A stretch of 64,000 bases of DNA, taken from positions 1-64,000 of the IMG/VR virus record IMGVR_UViG_3300031951_000017. One strand, 5' to 3'. Positions 22,222 through 54,085 of the stretch are shown here, piece by piece. Position 1 is the first letter of the stretch; every line of letters begins with the position of its first letter. Source of the stretch: a virus. The position numbers and the translations under genes are program-made. The notes below the pieces were generated by a model that was given only the letters and a program-made list of their open reading frames with translations, was not told the origin of the DNA and made no database searches.

Positions 22222-23205
22222 TTAGTTGTTTGTAACCATATACTCTTGAAAGAATTGTTTGAAGATTTCTTCCATAACCGGAACACATATTGAATTACCT
22301 GCAAGTGCTACGTGATTTTTAGTACTAATACTTGTTGATAATAATTTTTCAATATCCTCTTCCCTTACACCCATAAATCGGTAACCTTCACGTGCTGTAA
22401 TATTTCTTACTCTACCATCTCTAGTCATAATTTGTGGTGAACCACTGGTAGTTAAACAAGGTGAACAACCATCAATAGAGTAGATACGTCTAGCTTGGTC
22501 ATATTTTACATCATTTCGTCTAGCGATTAACCTACAAGTAGATTGTTTTTTTGGTTCATTAATCTCATATTCACAATCAATGAATAGGGATTCATCGACG
22601 TTTTCAGTCTCCACAAAATCCTTCATAGGTATATGAGTTTTTTTGTTTTCTAAAACTCTTCTCATTTTGATTTCAACTTCTTCATTAGTTTCACCAAAAA
22701 CTGACATCATAAAAACTCTTTCTCTGTTCTGTGGACACCCATAATCAGCACCATTTAACATCAACCAAGAACATCCATACCCTATTGAATTTAGATAAGT
22801 TATATGGTCTTCAAAATTTTTAATGTGGTTTTTAGAAATTAAATTTTTTACATTCTCCATCAAAAGGAACTTTGGTTGGTTTTTACTTAGAATTCTTTCA
22901 ACTTCATATAATAATCCACTTCTAGTACCTTTTTGAATTCCTTTTTGTATTCCTGAAATTGAGATATCTTGACAGGGAAATGAATAGGTTAAAAAATCAC
23001 ATTGTGGGAACGTGTTTTCATCAACCTTAGTAACATCGCCTAAATTACCAATAGTCGTAGTGTGTATTGAGTCATAAGCAATATTTGCAGTATTTAAAAT
23101 ATCACAATTTGCTATAGTCTCAAAATTAACCCCAATGTATTTAAGGGCCAATTCTTGAGTGCCATAACCTGAAAATAATGATATTACTTTTAATTTATTA
23201 TTCAT
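22222..23205 (-). CDS. DNA (cytosine-5)-methyltransferase, orphan
   Basis: A 327-residue C5-cytosine methyltransferase. Motif I is VISLFSGYGTQELAL near the N-terminus, motif IV with the catalytic Cys is SFPCQDIS (about 73-80), motif VI is LLMENVKNL, and motif VIII is GCPQNRERVFM. A short target-recognition region precedes motif IX/X (NITAREGYRFMGV; VALAGNSICVPVMEEIF). The methylated site cannot be read from the sequence. No restriction endonuclease gene adjoins it, so protection of phage DNA against host restriction, or a regulatory mark, is likelier than a restriction-modification pair. It sits between recombinase and exonuclease. Confidence 0.95.
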   Translation of the reverse strand: MNNKLKVISLFSGYGTQELALKYIGVNFETIANCDILNTANIAYDSIHTTTIGNLGDVTKVDENTFPQCDFLTYSFPCQDISISGIQKGIQKGTRSGLLYEVERILSKNQPKFLLMENVKNLISKNHIKNFEDHITYLNSIGYGCSWLMLNGADYGCPQNRERVFMMSVFGETNEEVEIKMRRVLENKKTHIPMKDFVETENVDESLFIDCEYEINEPKKQSTCRLIARRNDVKYDQARRIYSIDGCSPCLTTSGSPQIMTRDGRVRNITAREGYRFMGVREEDIEKLLSTSISTKNHVALAGNSICVPVMEEIFKQFFQEYMVTNN

Positions 23206-24319: not shown

Positions 24320-25051
24320 TTAAGGAAATCTTAAATTGACTCTATCCTTTCTTTTGTAATTATAAATTTTTTCAACCAACTCAATATATGTATCTGATTT
24401 TATACAATTTACAAGGGATGTTGGTTGTTGTTGTAACTTAACAATAAACTCATCAAATTTGAACTCCTTATTACCCATTAATGTCATCATCGCATTAATA
24501 AACATAGTTCTTTTATAACCAGCATAAAATGGTCTAATCATTAACAACTTTTCCATAAAATCACATGCTCTTTCATAACTTTCAATTTTAAATTTTCCAT
24601 TTTTAAAATCATTAGTATATGACCTTTGGTGTTTCCATTTCAAAATTTTCTGAGAGTCTGAGTGATTCAAACTATATTTTTGTTTAAATTCTTTGTATTT
24701 AACATAATGTGGATTCTCTTGTTTTATAAAACATCTCAAATAATCGTCGTTTGTCCAATTTGTATTATTTGTGTTAAGTCTTTTCATTTCTTCCTCACCA
24801 TATCCATTAATTACAACATAGAATAATGGTAAATTAAGTTCTCTTATTGCATAATACCTATGTTGTCCGTCACAAATTTCGTTTTTTTCATTCACAGTTA
24901 TCAATGTAAATAAATAATCTTGTTTCATAGACTCAATCAACGATTTCACGTGAGTTTCATTTACTGGTCGATTTAAAGGATGAAACTTAAAAGTAGAATA
25001 ATCTGTAGTACAATTTATTGATGGTATTGTAATTGTATTATTTAAAATCAT
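24320..25051 (-). CDS. ParB/sulfiredoxin-like domain protein
   Basis: A 243-residue protein. Residues about 25-90 carry a ParB-like N-terminal fold: FHPLNRPVNETHVKSLIESM, then LITVNEKNEICDGQHRYYAI. The GQHRYYA motif matches ParB box II (GxxRxxA), which in ParB binds CTP and in related phage proteins can carry nuclease or other activities. The rest is helical, with basic segments (YAGYKRTMFINAMM). It sits between the SSB and recombinase genes and is flanked by terminators on both sides, so it may have its own expression control. A DNA-binding or nucleotide-dependent regulatory role is plausible. Function is otherwise unknown. Confidence 0.75.
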   Translation of the reverse strand: MILNNTITIPSINCTTDYSTFKFHPLNRPVNETHVKSLIESMKQDYLFTLITVNEKNEICDGQHRYYAIRELNLPLFYVVINGYGEEEMKRLNTNNTNWTNDDYLRCFIKQENPHYVKYKEFKQKYSLNHSDSQKILKWKHQRSYTNDFKNGKFKIESYERACDFMEKLLMIRPFYAGYKRTMFINAMMTLMGNKEFKFDEFIVKLQQQPTSLVNCIKSDTYIELVEKIYNYKRKDRVNLRFP

Positions 25052-48376: not shown

Positions 48377-48925
48377 TTATTTAGAAATGATTTCGTTTAT
48401 GACAAATAATTTGTTTTTCAAATTAATCATATCAACTTCTTTAGCGTTGAATACTGGTGTTTCTGTATCTTTGTAAACAAATGAATCATGTTTATACGGG
48501 TTATAGGTTACAACTCTCGTTGATGATTCCTCAGGTAAATTTTCACATGGGTATTCACAATAATCGATTAAATCTCCGATTACAAAAGCATGTACATTTT
48601 TTTGTTTGTCGACTCTAACTTTTTCTCTACCACCTTTTCTTACTCTAAACTCAACATCACCTAATTTAACATAATCAGCGTGAAGAACTACTTTAGTTTT
48701 ATATACTACAGAAAAAGTATGTAAATGAAGGTTATAATATACTTTTACTTTCTTACCTATAAAGTTTTCATCTGAATTATTATGACCACATTTATGACAA
48801 ATGTATGGGTCATTACCCCCCTCACTTAATTTCCAAGACCAACCACACTCTTCACACGTAACTTTATTAGTGTTAAGTTTTTCAGTTAATATACGTAATT
48901 GTTCTTCTGTTAATAAAATGTTCAT
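48377..48925 (-). CDS. Zn-ribbon protein of the head-tail region
   Basis: A 182-residue protein. Residues about 18-50 form a treble-clef or zinc-ribbon: TCEECGWSWKLSEGG, then PYICHKCGHNN, giving two CxxC pairs. This ribbon occurs in virion-associated proteins of large T4-like phages. After it, a beta-rich part (HTFSVVYKTKVVLHADYVKL, VEFRVRKGGREKVRV) and a second Cys pair (YCEYPCENL) follow. The first part MNILLTEEQLRILTEKLNT is a helix. The start overlaps the preceding gene by 4 bases. It probably acts in head-tail joining or as a minor structural protein. Confidence 0.65.
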   Translation of the reverse strand: MNILLTEEQLRILTEKLNTNKVTCEECGWSWKLSEGGNDPYICHKCGHNNSDENFIGKKVKVYYNLHLHTFSVVYKTKVVLHADYVKLGDVEFRVRKGGREKVRVDKQKNVHAFVIGDLIDYCEYPCENLPEESSTRVVTYNPYKHDSFVYKDTETPVFNAKEVDMINLKNKLFVINEIISK

Positions 48926-49492: not shown

Positions 49493-51256
49493 ATTATAGA
49501 ATCTCCGATTAAAATATCTGAAATTGAAGCTTTAGAAATTCTCCAAAATTACTCTGGGGCTAATAACTACATTTTAAAATTAAAACAACAACAATCGGTC
49601 AATAAAAAATTTTACCCTACTAGGGCTCAAACCGATTATATTATTAATTATCACACTAAAGAACCAAAAGTCGCTAAAAGGTGGGTTGAAATTGATAACT
49701 ATTTTGCAAAAAAATTAGTTGAAGATAACCCTTTCATATCTGAACCTGAGAAAATTTATGTTGAAAAACTTTTGGTTGAGAAAGATAAATCATTCCACAT
49801 TTGGGGAAAAATTCATAGTGGGGATACGCTCCATGATTTTTGGGTTCCTAAAGCGGCAATAATTAAAGAACCAAAAAAAAATATTGTAAATGTAGATTAT
49901 TCCAAATATGATAATCGACCCCCACTTAGTCATCAAAAAGAAGCTATAGAAAAATTTTTAGCATACGATAAATTCATATTAGCCGATGATATGGGTCTCG
50001 GTAAGACAACCTCAACAATAATTGCGGCTTTGGAGAGTGGTGCTAATAAAATATTGATAGTTTGTCCCGCGTCTTTAAAATTGAATTGGGAAAGAGAAAT
50101 AAGGAATTACTCAGATAGACCTGTTTATATATGTGAAGGAAAAAAATATGAGGATGCGGATTTTGTGATTACAAACTATGATATTCTTAAAAATTTTCAT
50201 AGTGAAAGAGAAAAAGAAAATTCATTAATATTAAAATCAAAGTTTGATTTGGTAATTATTGATGAGGCTCACTACATTAGTAATACACAAGCTCAAAGGA
50301 CTAAATTAATTAATGATATTGTCTCAAACATAAGCAAAATATGGTTACTTACAGGTACTCCAATCACGTCTAGACCAATTAATTACTTCAATCTTTTACG
50401 TATGGTTGAAAATCCTGTTGCACAAAATTGGATGGCTTACGTTATCCGGTATTGTGAGGGATTCCAATTTAAGACAGGTAACCGAAAAGTTTGGAATGTA
50501 AACGGGGCGTCAAATTTAGAAGAATTACGTAATCGTATTTCTAAACAAGTTTTAAGACGATTAAAAACAGATGTTTTAGACCTTCCTGAAAAAATAATTT
50601 CACCTGTATATCTAAGATTACACTCTAGACAATATGAAGAATTTATGGGTGAATACTATGATTGGTATACTAATCGTGAGAATGAAAATAAATCAGTTGC
50701 TTTACAATTTTCTAAATTAACTAAGGTTAGACAAATAATTGCTGAAGAAAAAATTACTCATACCATTGAGGTTGCTGAAAATATTATTGAACAGGGTAAA
50801 AAAGTTATAATCTTTAGTAATTTTACAGAGCCGTTAAAGAAAATTTATGAACATTTTGGAAAAAAAGCGGTCTATCTAGATGGAACAACGACAAAACCAG
50901 CTAGACAAAAGGCCGTCGATGACTTCCAAGAGAATGACAAAGTGATGGTATTTTGTGGTAATATTAAAGCCGCAGGTGTTGGTTTAACATTAACTGCAGC
51001 TGAGGCTGTAATTATGAATGATTTATCATTCGTACCATCTGACCACTCACAAGCGGAAGATAGAGCTTATAGATATGGTCAGAAAAATTGTGTTTCAGTT
51101 TATTATCCAATCTTTGAAAACACAATTGAAGGTATTATTTATGATATTCTAAATCGTAAAAAAAATATCTTTGAAACTGTTATGGGTGACAATATTGATA
51201 AGACGGATATGGTGTTTGAAATTATGAATCAAATAAATTCTAATGAAAAAAGTTAA
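49493..51256 (+). CDS. SNF2-family DNA helicase/translocase, non-ATG start
   Basis: A helicase of about 587 residues if started at ATT 49493. The TTG at 49772 would cut off a 93-residue N-terminal domain that is open in frame and looks coding (KFYPTRAQTDYIINYHTKEP, VAKRWVEIDNYFAKKLVEDN). An in-frame TGA lies at 49481 and no ATG, GTG or TTG occurs before 49772. Helicase motifs: DDMGLGKTT (I), VIIDEAHYIS (II), LLTGTPITSRP (III), IIFSNFTEPL (IV), AAGVGLTLT (V) and QAEDRAYRYGQ (VI). This resembles SMARCAL1/HARP annealing helicases and T4 UvsW in role. It is the first gene of the plus-strand island. Confidence 0.85.
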   Translation: MIESPIKISEIEALEILQNYSGANNYILKLKQQQSVNKKFYPTRAQTDYIINYHTKEPKVAKRWVEIDNYFAKKLVEDNPFISEPEKIYVEKLLVEKDKSFHIWGKIHSGDTLHDFWVPKAAIIKEPKKNIVNVDYSKYDNRPPLSHQKEAIEKFLAYDKFILADDMGLGKTTSTIIAALESGANKILIVCPASLKLNWEREIRNYSDRPVYICEGKKYEDADFVITNYDILKNFHSEREKENSLILKSKFDLVIIDEAHYISNTQAQRTKLINDIVSNISKIWLLTGTPITSRPINYFNLLRMVENPVAQNWMAYVIRYCEGFQFKTGNRKVWNVNGASNLEELRNRISKQVLRRLKTDVLDLPEKIISPVYLRLHSRQYEEFMGEYYDWYTNRENENKSVALQFSKLTKVRQIIAEEKITHTIEVAENIIEQGKKVIIFSNFTEPLKKIYEHFGKKAVYLDGTTTKPARQKAVDDFQENDKVMVFCGNIKAAGVGLTLTAAEAVIMNDLSFVPSDHSQAEDRAYRYGQKNCVSVYYPIFENTIEGIIYDILNRKKNIFETVMGDNIDKTDMVFEIMNQINSNEKS

Positions 51257-51274
51257 AGTTTAGATTATTTATCG

Positions 51275-51289: not shown

Positions 51290-52927
51290 ATGAAAAAGAT
51301 AGAAGAAAAAATTGATTTGATTGAATCTCAAATCAATGAAATCGAGTTAACCAAGAATAAAGATTTCTTGTTGACCGAAATGAAAAAAATTGGGATTGAA
51401 AAATTACCCTACTCCTACTCAGCCTTAAAATCATTCATTGATTCAGAAACAATGAATGTTCACTATAACAAACATTACAAAGGATACGTAGATAAATTAA
51501 ATGCTGCGTTAAGTAAGAAAAAATTTGGTGATATGGATTTGGAACAGATTGTTAAATCCATTAGTAAATTTAGTAAGGACGTTAGAAATAATGCAGGTGG
51601 TGCATACAATCACGCATTATTTTGGAAGATGTTATCACCAAAACCACAAAAACCTAAAAAATTGGTTTTAGCAAAAATTAACAAAGATTTTGGTGATATT
51701 TCTTCTTTTAAGAAAAAATTTAACCAAATTGCAAAGGAAAATTTTGGGTCAGGCTGGGTTTGGTTAATTGTTACCGATAAAAATAAATTAAAGGTCGTTA
51801 CTACACCAAATCAGGACAATCCACTAATGAATGATGCTGAAGACAAAGGGTATCCAATTTTAGGATTAGATTTGTGGGAACACGCATATTATTTGAAATA
51901 TAGAAATCAAAAAGATGACTATATTAAAAACTTTTGGTCAGTTGTAAATTGGGAATTTGTTGAAGAATTATATAAAATGAAAATGGAAACTAAACTTAAT
52001 GAATCTGTCATAACTCGGACATTGTTAGAACAAGAAGAAGATATCGTATTAAGTATTACCCCACAATATTGTAATGGTGGTGAGACTAACGTGATTTCAA
52101 AAATTATATTTGATACTAATCTAGAAAAAGACCAAAGGTCAAAAAGACAAGAGACTTGGAGGTCGATGATGTCAAATGGTATTCAAGAAATTTTAAAAAA
52201 TCACTTCCCAGAAAGATGGGAAAAACCTAGTCCTCTTCATAAACCAGGAGTCTATAGAGTACAGAATGGTATTAAAGTCAGGTCATTACTTAATAATTTG
52301 ACATCATCATATACAGCACTATGTGTTATTTATAAATTCATAAATGATTATCTCCGTCTCACTGACCAACCTCTTTTGGACTTTGATAGAGATAATTACG
52401 AAAAGACCACTTCAGAGGTGAAAAGATTTTTGTCAATTATTGATTCACTAAGAGGATATATCTTTAACCCAAGTACTGAAATTAATAAAAAAATTGGGAA
52501 TGCTCTTAAATTCTCTAGTTGTGAAGGTGACCAAAACGAAAAAGTTGCTTTACAAATTTTAATTGAGAATTATGGAGAGGGTTGTGCTAAACTAGAATCA
52601 GGTTTAGGGTTGACTAAAGATATGATTGGTGGGATTGATTGTATATTAAACACGGATGAAGGTGAAAAAACCGTACAAATTAAACCATTTAGAGCTCTAA
52701 AAGAAGAAAACTCTGAAATACATGTTTTAGGTGCCTCTTCAGTTAAGGACCATTCCGTTGACTTGTATATGTTCGTTGATAAGGACAACGGAGTCTTACA
52801 AATATTTAAGAACGAAGGTGTTAAGTTTGCACATAGAACATTTATATTCCCTAATACTTCACATATGGATAGTTTATCGGCTAAAAATCCTATTGAAAAA
52901 GTTAATTGTAGAATGTATCTTGTGTAA
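51290..52927 (+). CDS. Mn-type superoxide dismutase fused to PD-(D/E)XK-like domain
   Basis: A 545-residue protein. Residues about 38-230 are a full Fe/Mn superoxide dismutase: LPYSYSALKSFIDSET, metal ligand His58 in VHYNKHY, His62 and Tyr66, NNAGGAYNHALFW with ligand His108, NQDNPLM with the Mn-type Gln175, and LDLWEHAYYL with ligands Asp194 and His198. All ligands are present, so superoxide dismutation is expected. Residues about 235-545 are a second part. Its segment NEKVALQIL (Glu417), GGIDCIL (Asp450) and VQIKP (Gln463, Lys465) fits a PD-(D/E)XK nuclease with QxK. The fusion is in one uninterrupted frame. I know of no standard family with this pairing. Confidence 0.85.
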   Translation: MKKIEEKIDLIESQINEIELTKNKDFLLTEMKKIGIEKLPYSYSALKSFIDSETMNVHYNKHYKGYVDKLNAALSKKKFGDMDLEQIVKSISKFSKDVRNNAGGAYNHALFWKMLSPKPQKPKKLVLAKINKDFGDISSFKKKFNQIAKENFGSGWVWLIVTDKNKLKVVTTPNQDNPLMNDAEDKGYPILGLDLWEHAYYLKYRNQKDDYIKNFWSVVNWEFVEELYKMKMETKLNESVITRTLLEQEEDIVLSITPQYCNGGETNVISKIIFDTNLEKDQRSKRQETWRSMMSNGIQEILKNHFPERWEKPSPLHKPGVYRVQNGIKVRSLLNNLTSSYTALCVIYKFINDYLRLTDQPLLDFDRDNYEKTTSEVKRFLSIIDSLRGYIFNPSTEINKKIGNALKFSSCEGDQNEKVALQILIENYGEGCAKLESGLGLTKDMIGGIDCILNTDEGEKTVQIKPFRALKEENSEIHVLGASSVKDHSVDLYMFVDKDNGVLQIFKNEGVKFAHRTFIFPNTSHMDSLSAKNPIEKVNCRMYLV

Positions 52928-52934
52928 TTAATAA

Positions 52935-52965
52935 ATCGGCTAATATTTATAAAATAAAAGCCGAT
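52935..52965 (+). promoter_or_regulatory. Hairpin covering neck gene start, with TATTTATA in loop
   Basis: ATCGGCT (52935-52941) pairs with AGCCGAT (52959-52965), whose last two bases are the A and T of the ATG. The 17-base loop holds TATTTATA at 52944-52951. Transcripts from upstream would hide the start, while ones begun at the motif would lack the left arm. Inference from sequence only. Confidence 0.45.
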
Positions 52966-54085
52966 GTCTAAAATATCACAACCCGAAAGAAACAAGTTAT
53001 TTACAAAAGTAAGACACTTACTTGGTGCACCTTTAAGAGGTATTGAATTGGAAGATGAACAGATGGACACTCTGTTAGAATTTTCTATTGATGATTATTC
53101 ACAATATATACAAGATTGGTTAACTGAATCACAATGGTCATCATTGTATAATTTAAACTTGGATGAACAATCTTTGTCTAGAGCTTTTGTAACTAGAACT
53201 TTAGATTATGAAACAAGATACACTTATGCGTATTCAAAAATTGTTGGGTTACAAACTGGTGGTGATTGGGTTCTAAAGAAAGATTTTATAGAATTAAAAA
53301 AGAACCAACAAATTTATGAAATTCCTGCTGGTCGTGAACTTAATGAGTTACTTTGGTTCACACCATCAACACTGACAAATATTTTATTTGACCCTTGGTC
53401 TTTTGGTAGTATGGGTGGACCTGGTATTGGTGGACCAGGAGGATATGCACAATTAGGTTATAGTGGTTCATATTTCTTAATGCCAGCTTTTGACATGCTA
53501 TTAAGGATGCAAGAGATTAATATCCAAAGACGTATCATTGCTTCTGAAATGACTTATCGTGTTACTGCATTACCTGATGGTAAAAAAGCAATACATTTAA
53601 TGAATACTCCTGGTGGTAAGTTTGACTTTGGTAGTTCTAACTTCGTAAGTGGTAGAGTTTGGTATTGGTATTACGATGTGGGTCCCGCAGATAAAAATTC
53701 ATGTTTAAAAGCTAATCCCGATATTATTAGAACACCTAATGATGTCCCATATGAAGAACTTACATGGGACGATTTAAATAACCCATCAAGACAATGGGTT
53801 AGAAGATGGTTTGTTGCATATTGTAAAGAAACTTTAGCAAGAGTACGAGGAAAATACAGTGGAAACTTGAAAACTCCAGATTCTGAATTAACTTTAGATT
53901 ATACATCATTAGCGACTGAGGCTAAAGATGAAAAAACTAAACTTATTGATGAGTTGATTGGAACTGATGGAAGACTTACTAGATTAAAGCCTGAAAAGGT
54001 TATGGAGAGAGAAGCACAAATTGCCGAAAATCTTAACAAGTCTCTTAAATTCAGAGCAGCACCTCGTCAGATTTATGTAATTTAA
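52964..54085 (+). CDS. Neck / head-tail connector protein, tentative
   Basis: A 373-residue protein starting MSKISQPERNKLFTKVRHLL. It has a helical N-terminus with an acidic stretch (GIELEDEQMDTLLEFSIDDY), aromatic repeats, a Gly-rich patch (GSMGGPGIGGPGGYAQLGYS, about 149-168), and a helical end. The segment ARVRGKYSGNLKTPDSELTL is like T4 gp13/gp14 neck proteins, where it is followed by a Glu-rich helix. In T4, gp13 and gp14 lie near the tail genes. It is followed after 3 bases by the 111-residue gene. A structural neck role is likely but not certain. Confidence 0.6.
   Translation: MSKISQPERNKLFTKVRHLLGAPLRGIELEDEQMDTLLEFSIDDYSQYIQDWLTESQWSSLYNLNLDEQSLSRAFVTRTLDYETRYTYAYSKIVGLQTGGDWVLKKDFIELKKNQQIYEIPAGRELNELLWFTPSTLTNILFDPWSFGSMGGPGIGGPGGYAQLGYSGSYFLMPAFDMLLRMQEINIQRRIIASEMTYRVTALPDGKKAIHLMNTPGGKFDFGSSNFVSGRVWYWYYDVGPADKNSCLKANPDIIRTPNDVPYEELTWDDLNNPSRQWVRRWFVAYCKETLARVRGKYSGNLKTPDSELTLDYTSLATEAKDEKTKLIDELIGTDGRLTRLKPEKVMEREAQIAENLNKSLKFRAAPRQIYVI

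Follow-up and report, generated by a model that had tools for sequence, protein, structure and literature searches.

The internal proteins of phage T4 reach the head by means of cleaved N-terminal targeting sequences, and the T4 protease gp21 cuts after L/I-X-E (both as outlined in PMC9026906). Outside bacteriophages, chlorovirus PBCV-1 packages a Cu/Zn superoxide dismutase (SOD), and chlorovirus restriction endonucleases are likewise packaged in virions, according to the account given in PMC7019647. PMC6802176 describes numerous oxidative-stress genes, including SODs, in freshwater phages. In Vibrio phage 2.275.O (189 aa) and Pseudomonas phage Callisto (182 aa), the SOD is a separate gene, unlike the fusion described here. 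A search of the open-access literature by titles and abstract openings returned no paper naming a SOD-nuclease fusion or a phage-packaged SOD.

We analysed a 64,000-nt stretch of DNA (the window; positions 1 to 64,000 of IMG/VR record IMGVR_UViG_3300031951_000017), together with the full record (G000), around a plus-strand gene at 51290-52927 for which a preliminary description had proposed a SOD fused to a nuclease-like domain. Like the T4 internal proteins IPI-III and Alt, the gene product has a leader and hydrophobic-x-E sequences at its joints, and its genome encodes a T4-type protease and a capsid protein; it differs in that two enzymes share one precursor and that cleavage and packaging are deduced from the genes, and we claim no sequence homology to the T4 proteins. 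PBCV-1 offers a parallel in that SOD and nucleases travel in the particle of a dsDNA virus, established by experiment there and proposed here, and differs by an unrelated SOD family, separate proteins and a eukaryotic host. Our best reading of the fusion, to which we give an even chance, is that of a head-packaged precursor that would be made late and split by cleavage, its SOD and nuclease entering the host along with the phage DNA.

Results

A SOD-nuclease frame recurs in uncultured phages

The gene at 51290-52927 (plus strand) is a single ORF of 545 codons with an ATG start and zero internal stops. The 545-aa protein comprises, in order and all on the plus strand, a 30-residue leader (residues 1-30; 51290-51379) that ends with LTE30 and is followed directly by M31 of the SOD, a complete Mn-type SOD (residues 31-232; 51380-51985), a hinge (residues 236-247; 51995-52030) with the candidate prohead-protease sites LNE238/S ... 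LLE247/Q, and a 300-residue second half. Two parts can be distinguished in the latter: a helical part in the AlphaFold2 model (residues 262-402; 52073-52495) and a PD-(D/E)XK nuclease-like core (residues 403-537; 52496-52900). The full-length AlphaFold2 model has a pLDDT of 82 and a pTM of 0.52, and the placement of the domains relative to each other is therefore unreliable.

When IMG/VR was scanned with the whole protein, at least 600 stretches matched and at least 598 of them were found to encode a relative, the best 80 of which were kept. Among the matches listed, the nuclease domain was recognized (E <= 1e-5) in 94 distinct proteins from IMG/VR contigs. In 75 of these a SOD shares the frame, another 15 are stand-alone nucleases (278-294 aa), and in the remaining 4 the domain lies on a zinc-ribbon / L5 gp82-like protein. 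The 75 SOD-nuclease proteins consist of 73 complete fusions, the window's own counted, and 2 cut by the end of the stretch, one of them identical to the window's protein apart from the truncation. At E <= 1e-4 and with further loci included, the matches listed comprise 102 nuclease-domain proteins, 75 with and 27 without SOD; note that neither 94 nor 102 is a frequency, because both were drawn from best-hit lists. The 73 complete fusions among the matches listed include 29 at < 80% and 12 at < 65% identity. Conservation was counted on an alignment of 67 distinct full-length rows, window included, from which rows < 480 aa and duplicates were dropped; as the rows are related, these counts are not independent.

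Since the same uninterrupted frame recurs across distinct relatives, a missed stop or a frameshift between the two halves is excluded, and the at least 73 distinct complete fusions rule out a chimeric assembly as well. The preliminary description had also held that neither half is degraded, and the SOD ligands and E417, D450, Q463 and K465 of the second half are indeed invariant in 67/67 rows. Overall, we regard the existence of the SOD-nuclease fusion and its conservation as practically certain.

The first half is a Mn-type superoxide dismutase

Pfam assigns Sod_Fe_N to residues 37-116 (2.7e-24) and Sod_Fe_C to residues 124-226 (6.3e-40), and among solved structures the best matches are to SODs, which align with residues 38-230 (E 2.5e-62). 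The metal ligands H58, H108, D194 and H198, plus Q175, are all present as first described, and each is invariant in the 67 full-length rows; Q175 together with GG103-104 we take to be marks of the Mn type. By its domains and ligands the first half is a member of the Fe/Mn SOD family, of Mn type, with dismutation as its predicted activity. It resembles other members in both Pfam domains, the four ligands and Q175, and is unlike them in its setting, with a phage leader before it and a nuclease after it. That the gene encodes simply an ordinary host-like SOD is ruled out by the conserved second half.

A scan for a possible SOD donor gave 28 pattern matches, 4 of which encode a relative (Halomonas, Fluviicola, Verrucomicrobiia and a Woesearchaeota MAG), too few cellular relatives for a SOD tree to be built. 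Host-like SOD genes are present in several 'phage' records (e.g. OR850395, OR845917 and AFYI01000005), one of which bears the title of a Salmonella genome; these records may in fact be bacterial, in which case SOD counts in the phage collection would be inflated.

The fusion gene lies between a helicase and a neck gene and may be transcribed like the latter

The fusion gene is flanked upstream by a SNF2-type helicase (49772-51256, plus strand), recognized by profile matches, and downstream by a neck / head-tail adaptor Ad2-like gene (52964-54085, plus strand; phrog_211, 5.1e-10), in agreement with the short plus-strand island between a helicase and a neck-type gene noticed at first. The helicase lies on the same strand and < 1.5 kb upstream in 60/60 fusion and 12/12 SOD-less loci with enough flank, at a gap of <= 150 bases in 68 of these 72. 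By a strict rule the neck gene comes next downstream in 58/67 fusion and 14/15 SOD-less loci; in the other 9 fusion loci and 1 SOD-less locus it overlaps by 9 and 3 bases. In some relatives this locus thus holds a SOD-less version of the gene, with helicase and neck gene on either side, so the SOD was inserted, or lost, between leader and nuclease. In 17 chosen records (the window's and 16 relatives) the nuclease domain is present in 17/17 and the SOD in 12/17; in the five whose copy lacks SOD, none is present elsewhere in the record either, though records may be fragments. The cultured Flavobacterium phage immuto gave neither a SOD nor a nuclease match, and its leader-like N-termini are weak matches (best E 0.016) of types other than the leader sought.

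The nuclease domain also occurs as divergent copies on other proteins, most of them leader-bearing: L063 2118-3623, L072 1224-2639 and L218 1480-2637 on the minus strand, and L219 1201-2157 and L220 892-2019 on the plus strand of relative loci. Further divergent copies were seen at L178 and L179. The window has a leader-bearing zinc-ribbon / L5 gp82-like gene (48377-48925, minus strand; Phage_L5_gp82, 3.7e-29) that is free of the nuclease domain, and its homologues in relatives at L063, L072, L021, L128, L166 and L170 carry a divergent copy. In relative G003, the copy at L219 is located between the prohead protease and an acidic gene called 'scaffold-like' from its position and composition.

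A promoter-like element, TATTTAT, is read at 51266-51272 (plus strand) upstream of the fusion gene and recurs in relatives. It is found <= 60 nt upstream of the fusion or SOD-less gene in 66/69 distinct regions (shuffle mean 4.0) and of the neck gene in 63/65, against 10/62 for the helicase (shuffle 7.3), 3/61 for the DNA polymerase and 0/43 for the gp82-like gene; a 170-aa minus-strand gene has it in 38/61 loci. Because TATTTAT precedes the fusion gene and the neck gene and not the helicase, the fusion gene probably follows the neck gene in its transcription and not the helicase.

A second sequence, ATATTTAT, which we take to be the reverse complement of the T4 late promoter core, occurs within 60 nt upstream of 29/160 genes of the window and the full record (3.6 in shuffles, 6 antisense), where it is directional and sits 10-42 nt upstream. 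It precedes the fusion or SOD-less gene in 30/69 regions and is absent before the window copy. Among the genes scanned, a PHROG function is available for 8 of the 29: baseplate wedge, sheath, neck and prohead protease, then two endolysin-like genes, one transglycosylase-like gene and, as an exception, one DnaB-type helicase; six of the eight are structural or lysis genes. The scaffold-like gene also has ATATTTAT. The T4-like late motif TATAAATA was tried and discarded, with 9/160 upstream occurrences against 5.4 in shuffles, its reverse complement being the enriched form. That the TATTTAT element is a late promoter is what we infer rather than read off, because ATATTTAT is absent <= 60 nt upstream of the capsid, portal and terminase genes and the 170-aa gene has TATTTAT in more than half of its loci.

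The constant helicase would suit a cytosolic bifunctional enzyme, uncleaved and unpackaged, in which a Hjc-like nuclease would act with the SNF2 helicase in recombination or repair while the SOD shields replicating DNA or the host, and the many Holliday junction resolvases among the structural matches of the second half (see below) agree with it. Its SOD part would also accord with the freshwater phage oxidative-stress genes, SODs included, which are read as host protection in PMC6802176. However, the neck gene is an equally constant neighbour, a promoter-like element of the fusion gene's own sets it with the neck gene and apart from the helicase, which lacks one, and such an enzyme leaves unexplained the hydrophobic-x-E at the joints, the leader and the nuclease copy among the G003 head genes. 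We therefore consider it rather unlikely.

Both joints carry candidate prohead-protease sites

[ILVMF]-x-E is present in at least 90% of the 73 complete fusions at three columns only, E30, E197 and E238, and the same three columns emerge from the 29 fusions at < 80% and the 12 at < 65% identity. E197 belongs to the W-E-H metal site of the SOD; E30 and E238 are the two joints, and hydrophobic-x-E is found at each of them in 73/73 (note that the hydrophobic class was widened from L/I to ILVMF for these counts). An additional hydrophobic-x-E lies between E238 and C261 in 72/73. The residue after E30 is Met in 73/73, and M31 looks like the own ancestral start codon of the SOD. After E238, Ser or Gly is found in 48/73 and Glu in 13/73; T4-type sites mostly have A, S or G after the cut Glu.

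The genome encodes a T4-type head maturation protease (102543-103280 of the full record; phrog_207, 1.3e-42) as well as portal, terminase and capsid protein. A prohead protease match was obtained in 10/17 records, the 7/17 without a match being records that may be fragments. The capsid protein was matched in 12/17 records and 11 N-termini were recovered, of which 11/11, the window's own counted, read LINE/A at residue 60, the kind of site expected for a T4-type protease; this conservation is no separate proof, because the capsid-protein N-terminus is nearly invariant throughout and contains other hydrophobic-x-E.

The hydrophobic-x-E could instead be structural, as helix caps or linker packing, with the leader being another targeting signal or a vestige and the chain staying single at whatever site it acts. 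E30 and E238 do sit in modelled helices, and the invariant Met after E30 would fit this as well. Against it, the otherwise strongly variable hinge keeps only E238 and the hydrophobic residue two before, and model confidence is lowest exactly there, the pLDDT of the full-length model falling below 50 over residues 237-248 and nowhere else. We hold this explanation to be quite improbable.

The leader and the hinge resemble N-termini of other phage proteins

The start K(I/L)xES...IxxxIxxE is common to several proteins of the genome. Leader-bearing and otherwise unrelated proteins are encoded beyond the window at 95278-95889, 111882-112727, 153081-154307, 158140-158478 and 162436-162867 of the full record, and one leader-bearing protein is endolysin-like (117998-119410). 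Small ORFs at 162872-163868 of the full record belong with these, the leader across this group reading K(I/L)xES...IxxxIxxE or MK(F/Y)xITES. The leader that precedes the nuclease in the SOD-less orthologues resembles that of the fusions in kind, and in 14/15 of them, by the pattern used, the order is leader, hydrophobic-x-E, nuclease. Nuclease copies at other loci show the leader pattern in 9/12, against 74/524 other N-termini, the pattern being post hoc and several of the 12 copies closely related; the 3/12 without it include one in a 735-kb phage. Genes with the leader pattern are not enriched for ATATTTAT (3/13 vs 29/160 genes). The shared leader is perhaps a capsid-targeting signal of this phage group.

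A leader HMM was built from six proteins of the genome, fusions left out. It scores >= 0 bits on 57/67 hinges, as compared to 295/2010 shuffled hinges, 204/2263 internal windows of other proteins and 125/612 other windows of the fusions. The window hinge reaches 4.1 bits, and 4 bits are attained by 24/2010 shuffles and 22/2263 windows. The pattern K.?[ILVM][NT]E[ST], written after seeing the hinges, is present in 48/67 of them and in 0.7% of shuffles, 0.3% of windows and just 2.3% of 528 other N-termini. From these sequence comparisons, the hinge resembles the N-terminal leaders of other proteins of the genome.

The second half contains a nuclease-like core of the PD-(D/E)XK type

AlphaFold2 modelled the second half from 36 sequences with a pLDDT of 87.8 and a pTM of 0.82. 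Foldseek against the PDB gave nothing at E <= 0.001 for this model, the best match being I-Ssp6803I (E 0.024). When the Foldseek candidates were aligned with VIA-align, rows 1-18 were all nucleases or nuclease complexes (Z 5.0-7.9), namely Holliday-junction resolvases, restriction and homing endonucleases and SPARDA complexes, with top values of 7.9 for Hjc-type resolvases, 7.7 for NhoI, 7.6 for I-Ssp6803I and 7.4 for SPARDA complexes; we take the structures of these 18 rows to belong to the PD-(D/E)XK superfamily. The matches span model residues ~175-309, which correspond to protein residues ~403-537. In the model, E417 is in a helix, D450 just ahead of a strand, and Q463 and K465 in the following strand. 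The core fold and the E, D, QxK pattern are thus as in archaeal Hjc, I-Ssp6803I, NhoI and the SPARDA effector, and the differences from these lie in an extra helical part ahead of the core, the fusion to a SOD and Z values < 8, a range that by itself can reflect a common arrangement. The structure prediction and fold search thus support the nuclease-like domain that the preliminary description had drawn over some 300 residues, but confine the core with E417, D450, Q463 and K465 to ~403-537, residues 262-402 being helical. This helical part had no clear fold match with VIA-align; a likeness to RNase III, at a best Z of 3.3, is not believed.

Because the VIA list is uniform and E, D and QxK are invariant, the assignment to PD-(D/E)XK is likely, and we consider a catalytic nuclease likely as well. 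Catalysis being predicted and the fold matches staying at Z < 8 with a best Foldseek E of 0.024, the second half might be a dead nuclease serving as a DNA-binding or packaging adaptor, but this is very improbable given four putative catalytic residues that are invariant in 67/67 rows while the half as a whole is 25-41% identical to the window copy in 35 relatives.

None of the curated families of Pfam, PHROGs, NCBIfam and PADLOC recognized the second half of the window copy, Pfam giving just VpsT-like_REC at E 0.6. We give no credence to stray matches among the 36 members, such as those of one member to Pfam MC4 (1.9e-4), of three to PADLOC Csn2 (best 0.0011) and of one to phrog_5018 (0.001). 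A pattern-based scan of cellular genomes for the second half gave 15 pattern matches and zero relatives. In the phage collection, the window copy's second half found nothing at E <= 1; with a SOD-less copy as query, two uncultured records of 735 kb were matched (25% identity). The best BFVD match to the second half is UniProt A0A6J5L953 (E 2.1e-18, TMq 0.70), a 501-aa protein deposited as 'superoxide dismutase [uncultured Caudovirales phage]' and so named as a SOD only; since it aligns by fold with the second half, it is likely a member of the family already deposited. The second BFVD match is a 1113-aa marine phage protein, and two more are named PD(D/E)XK endonuclease (E 0.019 and 0.099).

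Discussion

Three readings had been offered for this gene at the outset: protection of DNA from oxidative damage during infection, a redox-controlled nuclease, and a virion-carried enzyme. The last gains most from our comparisons, because of the hydrophobic-x-E at the joints, the T4-type protease, the leader and the promoter-like element of the kind seen before the neck gene; the redox-controlled nuclease finds no specific support.

In the reading that we prefer, the gene would give rise to a late-made precursor consisting of leader, SOD, hinge and PD-(D/E)XK nuclease. The leader would carry this precursor into the prohead, as do the capsid-targeting sequences of the T4 internal proteins, and the T4-type prohead protease would cut after (L/I)xE, that is after E30 and after E238 and/or the next site, leaving in the head an intact SOD starting at Met31 and a free nuclease. 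Both would be ejected together with the genome. The SOD could then lower superoxide as infection starts, whether this arises from membrane or respiratory damage or from an oxidative defence, and the nuclease could act against the DNA of the host or of competitors. That the protein is packaged, cut, ejected and made late, that both halves are active, and what they act on is all inferred from genes and models. Several observations speak against this reading: the Met after E30 and the Glu after E238 in some fusions, the modelled helices at E30 and E238, the modest leader score of the window hinge, the lack of ATATTTAT enrichment among genes with the leader pattern, the endolysin-like protein that bears a leader, the nuclease copies that lack the pattern, and the outcome for phage immuto.

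If the nuclease is packaged, the phage genome would need to be protected from it, and phage cytosine methylation may give this protection. Such marking could come from two C5 cytosine DNA methylases, encoded at 22222-23205 of the window (minus strand) and at 158551-159405 of the full record (plus strand). A weak GmrSD_N / DndB-like match, under curated cut-offs, was also seen at 24320-25051 of the window (minus strand), beside recombination genes.

More tentatively, and with somewhat less than an even chance of being right, we propose a two-enzyme polyprotein that is cut in the capsid by the prohead protease of the phage itself and ejected along with the genome as a kit for the first minute of infection, its nuclease being a module that shuffles among leader-bearing ejected proteins in this group of phages.

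The second half represents a nuclease-like family for which Pfam, PHROGs, NCBIfam and PADLOC hold no curated model. If the preferred reading is true, an antioxidant enzyme and a nuclease enter the phage particle as a single cargo and are separated by cleavage while the head is assembled, and the superoxide exposure of phages in the first minutes of infection becomes directly testable. The combination of leader and (L/I)xE could moreover give a sequence rule for recognizing the ejected proteins of one group of large uncultured phages.
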